Shown here one piece after another: positions 2,498-31,843 of a stretch of DNA of 64,000 nt. The notes beneath the pieces were generated by a model that was not told where the DNA came from, did no database searches, and worked only from the letters and a program-made list of their open reading frames with translations. Numbering within the stretch: position 1 is the first letter of the stretch; each line of letters begins with the position of its first letter. A program made the position numbers and the translations under genes. This DNA is from Variovorax sp. Root411 (lineage in GTDB: Bacteria > Pseudomonadota > Gammaproteobacteria > Burkholderiales > Burkholderiaceae_C): assembly GCF_001425205.1 (NCBI RefSeq), contig NZ_LMDW01000001.1:249928-313927 (forward strand), read 5' to 3'.

Positions 2498-3172
2498 ATG
2501 AAGCTGCTGCTCATCGAAGACAACCCGCAACTCGCGCACTGGCTCTCCAGCCTGTTGCGCGAGCAGGACTTCGTGGTCGACCATGTCGAGAACGGCGATG
2601 CGGCGGACCGGTTGCTGATGCAGACAAGCTACGACGTGGTGCTGCTGGACCTCAACATCCCGCAGCTCTCCGGCAAGGCCGTGCTGCGTCGGCTGCGCGA
2701 GCGCGGCGACACGGTGCCGGTGATCATCCTCACGGCCACCGCGTCGCTCGACCAGAAGGTGCTGTGCCTGGAGATCGGCGCGGACGACTACCTCGTGAAG
2801 CCCTTCGAGATCCGCGAACTGGTGGCGCGCATCAAGGTGCTGGTGCGCCGCCAGATGCCCGGCAAGGCCAACGATATTGCCTGTGGCGACCTGCGCTACG
2901 ACCTGCGCACGCGGCAGTTCACGCTGGCCGACGAAGAGCTGGCGCTGCCGCCGCGCGAACGCACGCTGCTCGAGACGCTGATGCTGAAGGTGGGCAGCAC
3001 CGTGTCGAAGCAGGCGTTGATCGATGCGATCTTCGGGCTCGACGACGAGCCGAGCGCGGATGCCGTCGACATCTATATTCATCGGCTGCGCAAGAAGCTC
3101 GAGGCGAGCCAGGCGACGATCATCACGCTGCGCGGTGTGGGCTATCTCCTGCGTACGCGTCAGGAAGATTAG
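2498..3172 (+). CDS. Two-component response regulator, OmpR/PhoB family (TctD/QseB-like)
   Basis: DNA-binding regulator of 224 aa. The receiver domain (about 1-115) has the acidic pair E7-D8, phospho-acceptor Asp51 in VVLLDLNIP, Thr79 and Lys101 in LVKPF. The C-terminal winged helix (about 125-220) ends with the family signature RGVGYLL. The ATG at 2498 was chosen because it begins directly with MKLLLIEDN; an upstream in-frame ATG at 2462 would add 12 residues without domain content. A TAGAAT hexamer at 2470-2475 could be its -10. It is followed after 227 bases by a TctE-like sensor kinase gene, the likely partner, and is divergent from the NitT/TauT-type importer, which it may control (inference). 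Confidence 0.93.
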   Translation: MKLLLIEDNPQLAHWLSSLLREQDFVVDHVENGDAADRLLMQTSYDVVLLDLNIPQLSGKAVLRRLRERGDTVPVIILTATASLDQKVLCLEIGADDYLVKPFEIRELVARIKVLVRRQMPGKANDIACGDLRYDLRTRQFTLADEELALPPRERTLLETLMLKVGSTVSKQALIDAIFGLDDEPSADAVDIYIHRLRKKLEASQATIITLRGVGYLLRTRQED

Positions 3173-3225
3173 GGTGCGGGTTCTTTGCGCTGTGCTTTGT
3201 TGTTCAGGGCCCGCTCACGCCGACG

Positions 3226-3361
3226 GGGTGCCTTGCTCCGCGAATGTCCCCCGCTTCGCTCCTCCTTTATTTCGCTGCGCAAGGCACCCCGCCGTCGTGA
3301 TCGTTCAGACAGCGAAATAAAGGAGGAGCGAAGCGGGGGACATTCGCGGAGGGGAGCACCC
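3226..3361. repeat. Large imperfect palindrome between regulator and kinase genes
   Basis: Bases 3236-3277 are a perfect 42-base inverted copy of 3310-3351. The pairing continues after a 4x4 internal loop (3232-3235 against 3352-3355) with six more pairs (3226-3231 against 3356-3361), and 32 bases lie between the arms. A competing 12-base-pair stem (3224-3235 with 3280-3291) can form instead, and it would place the whole left 42-base arm in its loop. The length and the intergenic position suggest a dispersed palindromic repeat (REPIN or MITE-like) rather than a simple terminator. No second copy is visible in this window. Confidence 0.85.
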
Positions 3362-3399
3362 GGTGGCCTGTGCACACACCCCGGACAGAAGGCTCAGAA

Positions 3400-4809
3400 A
3401 TGAAGCGCGCCAGCCTCCGTCTGCGCCTGGCCTTGTGGCTGCTGCTGCCGATGTCGGTGTTCGTCGCCATCTGCGGATACCTCAACTGGCGCAACGCCGC
3501 GGAAGTGGCCGACTACGTGCAGGACCACGACCTGCTGTCGTCCGCCAAGGTGCTGTCGGACCGCTTGATCTGGGAAGGCAATGACGTGCAGGCCAGCGTG
3601 CCGCCTTCGGCGCTGAGCCTGTTCGTCTCGCCCGAGCGCGACCGTGTGTTCCTCAGCGTGACGGGCATGAACGGCGAGGTGCTGGCCGGCTCGCCCGACT
3701 TCCCGCTGCCCGCCGTGCGCAAACCCGAAGGCGTCGACCGCGCGCAGTGGTACGACACGCACTTTGCCGGCGTGCCGCTGCGCGCCGTCGTCACCACGCG
3801 CGCGATGTACGAAGCCGGCGGCGCGCGCGACATCACCATTGCTGTCGGCAAGACCGAAGGCAGCCGCGACCATATGCTGCGAACGCTGTGGTGGCCGTCG
3901 ATGGAGTACCTGCTCATCGCGCTCGCGCTGGCCATAGCGCTCGCCGTGGCGGCGCTGACGCTGGAGCTGCGCCCCATCGTGCGGCTGAGCCAGCAGCTCG
4001 CGCAGCGCGACCCGCTGCACCTCGACCTCGTGGTGGACCCGGCCGCGCTGCACAGCGAACTGCGGCCGGTGGCTGACACCATCAACCGCTTCGTGGGCCA
4101 GCTCAAGGCGCATTCCGAGGCGCAGCGCCGCTTCATTGCCGACGCGGCGCACCAGCTGCGCACGCCGCTGGCCATGCAGGCCTCGCAGATCGAGTTCGCA
4201 CGCTACACGCGGCAGCACCGCGGCGAATGGGACACGCGCCGCGCCGACATGGACGCGATGTGGCTGGCCATGCAGACCAGCAACCGGCGGCTGGTCGATG
4301 TCACGAACAAGCTGCTGTTGCTGGCCCAGGCCGAACACGGCGACGCGCACACGCAGCTCGAACGGGTCGACTTGGCGGCAGTCGCCTTGCGCTGCGTCGA
4401 GCAGCTTGCCGCGCTGGCAGACCGGCGCCGCATCGATCTCGGGCTGGAGGCGCCCGATGCGGCCTTCGTGATGGCGCAGCCTGCCTTGCTCGACGCGTTG
4501 GCCGGCAACCTGCTCGACAACGCCCTTCGCTACACGCAGGAAGGCGGCCGCGTGACCGTCGGCGTGCGGCAGGTGCAAGGGGCGGTGGAACTGACGGTGG
4601 AAGACAACGGCCCAGGCATTGCGCCCGAGGTGCGCGAACGCGTGTTCGAGCGCTTCTACCGCGTGGCCCAGGACGCCGAGGGCACGGGGCTCGGCCTGGC
4701 GATCGTGCGCGAGATTGCACGGGCCTTCGATGCGAACGTGGACCTGGCAGCCAACCCGCGCGAGGCGCAGGGGCTGCTGGTCACGGTGCGCTTTCCGTCG
4801 GCCGCCTGA
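3400..4809 (+). CDS. Sensor histidine kinase, TctE-like (2CSK_N sensor domain)
   Basis: Inner-membrane kinase of 469 aa. Transmembrane segments lie near residues 8-27 and 165-190, enclosing a periplasmic sensor of about 140 residues resembling the TctE-type 2CSK_N domain. Then come a HAMP-like linker, the H-box DAAHQLRTPL, N-box NLLDNALRY, G1 DNGPGI and G2 GTGLGLAI. The ATG at 3400 was chosen over an in-frame GTG at 3370 because it gives a compact basic N-terminus (MKRASLRLRL) right before the first membrane segment; the GTG would also lie at the edge of the palindromic repeat. It pairs with the regulator gene at 2498-3172. In TctDE systems the stimulus is tricarboxylates, but no TctABC transporter is next to it here. 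Confidence 0.92.
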   Translation: MKRASLRLRLALWLLLPMSVFVAICGYLNWRNAAEVADYVQDHDLLSSAKVLSDRLIWEGNDVQASVPPSALSLFVSPERDRVFLSVTGMNGEVLAGSPDFPLPAVRKPEGVDRAQWYDTHFAGVPLRAVVTTRAMYEAGGARDITIAVGKTEGSRDHMLRTLWWPSMEYLLIALALAIALAVAALTLELRPIVRLSQQLAQRDPLHLDLVVDPAALHSELRPVADTINRFVGQLKAHSEAQRRFIADAAHQLRTPLAMQASQIEFARYTRQHRGEWDTRRADMDAMWLAMQTSNRRLVDVTNKLLLLAQAEHGDAHTQLERVDLAAVALRCVEQLAALADRRRIDLGLEAPDAAFVMAQPALLDALAGNLLDNALRYTQEGGRVTVGVRQVQGAVELTVEDNGPGIAPEVRERVFERFYRVAQDAEGTGLGLAIVREIARAFDANVDLAANPREAQGLLVTVRFPSAA

Positions 4810-31147: not shown

Positions 31148-31843
31148 ATGGCCCGGCTTCCCCGCCTTACGCTGGCCGGCATGCCGCACCACGTGATCCA
31201 GCGCGGCAACAACCGCCAGCCGATCTTTATGGACCGCGCGGACCACGAGAAGCTGCTCGCACTGCTGGCCGAGAACGCCACGCGCTTCGGCATCGCACTG
31301 CACGCCTACGTGCTGATGGACAACCACTTCCACCTGTTGGCCACACCCGACAGCCCCACCGGCCTGCCCCAGTTCATGCAATCGGTGGGCCGAAGCTACG
31401 TGCGCTACTTCAACGACCGGCATGGCCGCAGCGGCACGCTGTGGGAGGGCCGCTACCGGTCCACTCTCATCCAGACCGACCGCTACCTGCTGACCTGCAT
31501 GGCCTACATCGACCTCAACCCGGTTCGCGCGGGCATGGTGGCCGATGCGCGCGACTTCCCCTGGTCCAGCCATGGCCACTACGCCGGACTGCGGCACGAC
31601 CGGCTGCTGACCCCGCATCCGCTGTATTGGGAACTTGGCAACACGCCTTTCGCGCGGGAGGCCGCGTACGTCGAGCTGGTGCGTGGCGGGGTGCGTGCGG
31701 CCGACCAGAGCGCACTGACCGAGGCCACATTGCGGGGCTGGGCCGCGGGCGACGACGACTTTCTCGACAGCCTGCAGAAGTCCACCGACCGCCGGGTGGT
31801 CAAAGCCAAGGCCGGCCGGCCGCCATCGAACTCTTCATCCTGA
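31148..31843 (+). CDS. REP-associated tyrosine transposase (Y1_Tnp, IS200/IS605-like HUH)
   Basis: 231 aa single-strand DNA transposase-like protein (RAYT). The N-terminal PRLTLAGMPHHVIQRGNNRQ is the TnpA-REP signature; the HUH metal motif is MDNHFHLL; the catalytic tyrosine is probably the one in SYVRYFNDRHGR, followed by GTLWEGRYRS and YIDLNPVRA. No terminal inverted repeats or target duplication typical of an IS are visible, as expected for this family, which acts on REP palindromes elsewhere in genomes. An AT-rich tail follows. It seems intact and starts 17 bases after the methyltransferase gene. Confidence 0.93.
   Translation: MARLPRLTLAGMPHHVIQRGNNRQPIFMDRADHEKLLALLAENATRFGIALHAYVLMDNHFHLLATPDSPTGLPQFMQSVGRSYVRYFNDRHGRSGTLWEGRYRSTLIQTDRYLLTCMAYIDLNPVRAGMVADARDFPWSSHGHYAGLRHDRLLTPHPLYWELGNTPFAREAAYVELVRGGVRAADQSALTEATLRGWAAGDDDFLDSLQKSTDRRVVKAKAGRPPSNSSS

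Follow-up and report, generated by a model that had tools for sequence, protein, structure and literature searches.

Between a response regulator gene and the sensor histidine kinase gene that follows it, Variovorax sp. Root411 carries a long palindrome, which raises the question of whether this sequence is a switch belonging to the gene pair or a copy of a mobile repeat and, if the latter, how such a repeat is accommodated at this site. Mobile DNA within operons is expected to break gene coupling. The window, a stretch of 64,000 nucleotides, was analyzed together with the remainder of the 6.06-Mb genome (21 contigs) and with the genomes of relatives. The regulator is of the OmpR type, and its nearest NCBIfam model was TctD, with a score under the cut-off of that model.

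The initial annotation of the window had described two perfect 42-nt arms (3236-3277 and 3310-3351) and a rival 12-bp stem (3224-3235 with 3280-3291). The arms were confirmed as exact reverse complements, and the 12-bp stem is likewise exact, the real rival hairpin being longer than first described. An inverted-repeat search returned 55-nt arms (3223-3277 and 3310-3364, 91% identity) and a second inverted repeat with 33-nt arms of 85% identity, which corresponds to hairpin A in Table 1. Folded as RNA, positions 3173-3400 reached -144.1 kcal/mol, whereas shuffled versions averaged -91.8 (z -9.9) and 0 of 200 did as well; the DNA fold of positions 3205-3370 gave a z of -12.6. The hairpin core pattern had 2 matches in the window with 0 expected. 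An Rfam search of the palindrome returned microRNA models alone, all under cut-off, which were taken as chance matches to a long hairpin.

Table 1. Coordinates of the features at the regulator-kinase junction (positions of the window)
Feature	Position	Strand	Basis
Response regulator gene, upstream of the element; OmpR type	2498..3172	+	Pfam Response_reg, Trans_reg_C
Leader frame: GTG 1 base past the regulator stop, 48 codons, TAA in core B	3174..3320	+	Translation
Weak alternative frame: TTG start, 72 codons, 4-base stop overlap with the kinase ATG	3185..3403	+	
Left terminal-repeat-like segment GTTCAGGGC	3202..3210	+	Copies aligned by eye
Hairpin A, arms 3212-3244 and 3271-3303	3212..3303	+	Inverted repeat; stem-partner test on other copies
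Core A: conserved internal loop and tip hairpin GCTTCGC	3240..3275	+	
Core B, exact reverse complement of core A	3312..3347	-	
Hairpin B, outer arm still present (partner arm and most of spacer gone)	3348..3375	+	Alignment with L021
Right terminal-repeat-like segment ACACCCCGGAC	3376..3386	+	Copies aligned by eye
Sensor histidine kinase gene, downstream of the element	3400..4809	+	Pfam 2CSK_N, HisKA, HATPase_c

A single-copy palindrome conserved at this locus was not seen. The Root411 genome contains 136 cores of the GCTTCGC type (67 + 69) at up to 3 mismatches, the reversed control giving 0, and 167 exact cores of the general type (87 + 80). Within the genus, the full element was matched in 84 of 101 genomes and exact cores were present in 80 of 101, at 1 to 332 each, so that counts among the congeners range from 0 to 332. 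An even draw of the family gave matches in 39 of 399 genomes and 20 of 141 genera, with low counts outside the genus, and a draw of the order gave 4 of 399, all among the 12 family members drawn, and 0 of the 387 others. A search of 298 other family genomes, 3 of which are congeneric, with the GCTTCGC-specific pattern (at most 2 mismatches) gave no match. The exact core was found in at least 97 stretches of named species genomes, and among the 80 matches listed all are Variovorax. Three plasmid records bear the element, all from Variovorax (family Comamonadaceae); phage records and the E. coli genomes searched with the element gave no match.

The tips and the assemblies show further features of this distribution. 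GCTTCGC tips dominate in the Root411 genome (123 of 147 cores in its regions L188-L260) and make up most of the 100 matches listed in the relative G354, other species mixing many tips, which suggests a recent burst of one tip variant in these two high-copy genomes. Contigs break in or beside copies, both in Root411 (C15:27-52, C16:836544-836569) and at contig ends of Variovorax sp. KBW07 (L065, L083, L093, L101 and others); draft assemblies are thus broken at the element, and copy counts taken from them are likely too low.

Empty sites are found in relatives. At the regulator-kinase junction, the anchor-to-anchor distance was readable automatically in 22 of 25 orthologous loci, that of Root411 included (all but L284, L285 and L287), and in 19 of the 22 it is 60-76, corresponding to a tight, element-free junction. 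The three filled junctions (289 in Root411, 392 in G354 and 261 in G305, where the element is degenerate) have the same orientation, with the A side at the stop of the regulator. A tree of the 25 loci needs three changes of the filled label, and its well-supported branches force three; one gain and two losses would also amount to three changes, yet close relatives of the filled genomes are empty at this junction. For 15 other loci of Root411, the corresponding junction was sought in G340 and G352. Tight junctions were seen for L193 (2 and -4), L198 (1), L201 (0), L250 (1) and L188 (15 and -4), as well as for L241 in G340 (1) and for L258 (2) and L229 (1) in G352, the gaps at these loci in Root411 being 217-330. 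In G352, L241 and L204 hold 91 and 145 bases of other sequence, respectively; L204, L212 and L229 have partial or degenerate relatives of the element in G340; L195 is ambiguous (27, -16), and the comparison was uninformative for L210, L211, L219 and L225. Together with the 136 cores in Root411, these empty sites support the earlier proposal of a dispersed, mostly intergenic, mobile repeat.

The same data bear on the idea of a conserved local switch of the regulator-kinase pair. Such a switch would fit an element that lies exactly between both genes, has two alternative folds and occupies this junction in three genomes. With scores of copies elsewhere and 19 of 22 readable junctions empty, it is ruled out as a general account and has hardly any probability as an explanation of this locus; a local effect of the window copy alone is possible.

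The structure of the element is best seen in long copies. In L021, a left end GTTCRGGGCGCG is followed by hairpin A, a spacer of roughly 50 nt and hairpin B, with variable tails; the right end CGCGCCCCGAAC is present in other copies, L021 diverging there. In each hairpin, the outer stem leads to GCGAA/TTCGC and on to an asymmetric internal loop, which has TGTCCCCC and TCCTCCTTTAT on one strand and beyond which lies a tip hairpin. Neighboring cores are arranged plus then minus, always so for cores less than 200 bp apart in the Root411 regions. The rival hairpin of the window copy is hairpin A of these longer copies, and comparison with L021 reveals that the window copy has lost the first arm of hairpin B along with most of the spacer. 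The palindrome is therefore genuine but secondary. It represents a copy, reduced by an internal deletion, of a dispersed element with two hairpins, A and B, in inverted arrangement; the deletion left the two inverted cores, which are identical here, close to each other, and this accounts for the long perfect arms.

Outer stems are variable in sequence, and differ between genera, yet they are paired. Mean pairing with the own partner was -41.0, -41.2 and -43.4 kcal/mol for 144 modules of Root411, 58 of other Variovorax and 39 of other genera, respectively, compared with -21.0, -20.9 and -20.4 kcal/mol for swapped partners. The tip covaries, and at least 3 pairs, the flanking G-C counted, are formed in 28 of 39 distinct tips. 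The internal loop is nearly invariant, with CCCCC and TCCTCC in 337 of 357 modules and CCTCC with TCCCCC in 10; none of the 357 has one of the two changes alone, and the remaining 10 differ in other ways, two being related to the second state. That shape and internal-loop core are kept while stem sequences change suggests that the element is recognized by structure. The co-change of distant loop positions, C to T on one side and T to C on the other, is seen for example in L035, L039, L050, L228, L321 and L330, and the spread of one variant could explain it as well as selection.

The ends are less regular. The segments GTTCRGGGCGCG and CGCGCCCCGAAC were seen by eye, and in a test for MITE terminal inverted repeats the exact ends differed from copy to copy. 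The longest target-site match averaged 4.48 against 4.23, which is not significant (21 of 300 shuffles as high), with single loci such as L198 reaching 9 bases, and left and right junction types read by eye in G354 showed no correspondence. Outside Variovorax (L336, L337; G232, G020), some pairs have a longer spacer that sets the cores about 240 bases apart, and G020 has tips such as GCGACGGGCTGCGCCCGCCGC. At L318 (G474:C185), inverted cores at 2779-2818 (+) and 4759-4796 (-) lie 2 kb apart with several small ORFs and no short spacer between them; this pair was considered as a possible autonomous element, and no transposase was recognized by eye among the ORFs listed for it.

The position of the element relative to genes follows a rule. 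Genes were called with a home-made codon-based caller, and the Root411 regions were drawn from among the matches listed. Of 79 elements classed in 73 of these regions, 4 overlie a called gene. Between co-directional neighbors, hairpin A lies beside the upstream stop in 53 cases versus 3 in Root411 (74 elements once duplicates and edge cases were removed, including 4 in called genes and 1 untyped), in 20 versus 3 at 29 loci of other Variovorax and in 18 versus 4 among 33 elements at named loci. A replication in G354, read afterwards (73 elements in 60 regions), gave 40 versus 8, so that the four samples pooled hold 131 concordant and 18 discordant cases. In other genera 13 of 26 elements were typed, and the co-directional count of 9 versus 3 is not significant. 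Divergent gaps are avoided (2 of 70 elements, 2 of 69 as tested, against 16 of 67 control gaps of more than 60 bases; in G354, 2 of 73 against 43 of 121 controls). Elements generally lie just past stop codons, with the hairpin B side toward the downstream start. No preference for TGA stops was seen (49 of 59 versus 102 of 129), and strand openness is weak as a cause of orientation: at least one stop-free frame was present in 37 of 46 sense and 31 of 46 antisense strands, compared with 57% of shuffles.

A reading frame was then found to connect the upstream stop with the next gene. Elements with the A side facing a 3' end numbered 130 (60 from Root411, 27 from other Variovorax and 43 from named genomes). 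An ATG within -4 to +12 of the stop was present in 52 of the 82 followed by a co-directional gene, compared with 4 of 22 at convergent sites, 8 of 26 classed as undetermined and 6 of 44 ordinary co-directional gaps of more than 60 bases; 30 of the 82 co-directional copies lack it. The corresponding values in G354 are 26 of 40 versus 1 of 23 convergent. Of 64 such ATGs, 47 stand in the same frame relationship to core A, the stop codons themselves being spread 51/45/34; the copies share ancestry, so that p-values are overstated and this frame excess is inflated, and distinct ATG-to-core distances are multiples of 3 in 15 of 29 only, a modest excess.

In 47 co-directional cases with a gap of at most 420, 32 ATG frames extend as far as the next start or past it, versus 9 and 6 for the other frames, of which 38 and 41 stop early. 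Of the ATG frames, 21 terminate between -20 and +8 relative to the next start, 11 continue into the following gene (6 of them in its frame) and 15 stop early. Ends near the start fall at -1 or +4 in 12 of the 21, the 4-base ATGA overlap being commonest (9 of 21). G354, with a gap limit of 480, gave a similar picture: 15 of 25 ATG frames reach the next start or beyond (14 near it, 1 into the gene and 10 ending early) versus 0 and 4 of 25 for the other frames, which end early in 25 and 21, and 12 of the 14 near ends fall at -1 (six) or +4 (six). The favored frame relative to the core differs there (frame 1 in 18 of 27, frame 0 in 7) because the stems differ, so that openness and the two junctions are kept rather than one peptide. 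The N-terminal tails of the bridging frames are alike by eye (M..CFS.RRVV...CSGR); one conserved protein through the whole element is ruled out, since core-to-core distances are not multiples of 3. Three peptides matched no Pfam family and gave one meaningless NCBIfam match (E 0.16), and Shine-Dalgarno motifs are not enriched ahead of the next start (15 of 48 versus 40 of 94).

These frame statistics bear on a further explanation, namely, that the element is an oriented RNA element (terminator, attenuator or RNase III site) selected at transcript 3' ends, the frame being secondary. It would account for copies that lie just past stops, are oriented, avoid divergent gaps and preserve their hairpins, and for ERIC an orientation-dependent effect on mRNA stability is reported (PMC2229807). 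Set against this are the different frame statistics of co-directional and convergent sites and the junctions that are empty in most relatives, which argue against a conserved function per site, and we regard the explanation as quite improbable.

Starting from the observed dispersal, empty sites, paired stems, orientation and frame statistics, we consider it likely that the copy in the window is a shortened form of a mobile, non-autonomous element found in Variovorax and its relatives and tolerated in operons since it can be translated through. As judged from the sequences, ribosomes finishing the upstream gene would re-initiate at its stop, unfold the hairpins as they pass and continue to the next gene; coupling would survive the insertion, and such copies would be retained in operons. 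At the window junction, the distance from the GTG of the leader to core A is 66 bases, and its frame matches most ATG leaders of other copies. The internal deletion has shifted the frame and broken the bridging frame of this copy: the GTG leader terminates in core B, no ATG-led bridging frame is kept and only the TTG frame extends to the kinase, so that coupling may be weakened there. In relatives, kinase translation is probably coupled more closely to the regulator than it is here, and an effect of the element on the regulator-to-kinase ratio, as the initial annotation had suggested, is plausible. The double-hairpin origin, the orientation rule and the bridging frame go beyond that annotation.

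It had also been proposed that the element is moved by the Y1 transposase encoded at 31148-31843 of the window, and this part of the annotation found no support. No core was seen within 1.5 kb at any of the 30 Y1 loci read, of which two score as IS200-like, and presence and absence are uncoupled: a Y1 match occurs in all 17 genus genomes without a match to the element, and the 4 genus genomes without a Y1 match all hold cores (38, 8, 4 and 6), one of these genomes being 99% complete. Of the 101 genus genomes, 97 have the Y1 gene in single copy, whether or not they also hold elements. This distribution weakens the link with Y1, action in trans staying conceivable.

These observations also weigh on a reading of the element as a REPIN proper, i.e., a doublet moved by a single Y1/RAYT protein, with orientation and stop adjacency resulting from the single-strand target preference of the transposase and not from selection on translation. 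Inverted doublets, high copy number and fixed orientation are in line with this reading, as are the nearly universal single-copy Y1 gene and the score of the window Y1 to the NCBIfam REP-associated transposase model (74.2 bits, cut-off 80). The Y1 distribution speaks against it, as does the absence of a GTAG-type tag from the conserved core GCGAATGTCCCCCG...CTCCTCCTTTATTTCGC and its complement, and target choice alone leaves the bridging frame, and its absence at convergent sites, unexplained; the reading is thus unlikely.

Going beyond the translatable mobile element favored here, the copies may, rather doubtfully, represent a distinct mobile class: a translatable, structure-recognized double hairpin adapted to operon junctions, which would supply a start codon for re-initiation together with an unobstructed route to the following start, leave the downstream gene unsilenced and be moved by an enzyme reading the hairpin shape and internal loop. 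If the repeat survives by being translated through, it would provide a natural case of selection on coupling itself, for which many matched filled and empty junctions across species are available, and it would account for many intergenic repeats of Variovorax.

No published description of the element was recognized in the literature on repeats of Variovorax and Comamonadaceae, BRE, REPINs and RAYTs, small repeats close to stop codons, candidate structured RNAs and repeats in translational coupling, a search that mostly covered papers outside subscription. Like REPINs/BIMEs with RAYTs (PMC3116915, PMC2817692), the element forms inverted doublets of palindromic units, mostly intergenic, high in copy number and non-autonomous; its units are about 100 nt long versus 20-40 for REP units, its stems are sequence-variable, its orientation to transcription is fixed, and the related unit beside a RAYT described for REPINs has no counterpart at the 30 Y1 loci. 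With ERIC, YPAL and NEMIS it shares small size, structure, transcription and empty sites, and ERIC and YPAL also lie near gene ends, some with open frames (PMC2229807, PMC2759123). It differs from all three in having two hairpins with conserved internal loops and a frame joining the upstream stop to the next start, and in lacking matches in E. coli genomes. Nearest in taxon is BRE, a GC-rich and mostly intergenic repeat about 90 bp long that occurs in Bordetella and Comamonadaceae, with 29 copies in Polaromonas sp. JS666; BRE is described as tandem, not inverted, and its Table 2 holds no Variovorax, and in this comparison, by description only, it might be related to single modules (PMC3110155). 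Integron attC sites differ in that the element occurs in dispersed single copies, not cassette arrays, and its ends, GTTCRGGG, have a C at the fourth base and depart from the attC core site GTTRRRY (PMC8876359). The likeness to integrons lies in the proposed role of translation: short frames in some attC sites and ORF-11 of attI1 are described as allowing terminating ribosomes to re-initiate and reach the next gene (PMC8876359), and in the same sense the short frame spanning the stem-loops of the Variovorax element would carry ribosomes to the gene downstream.
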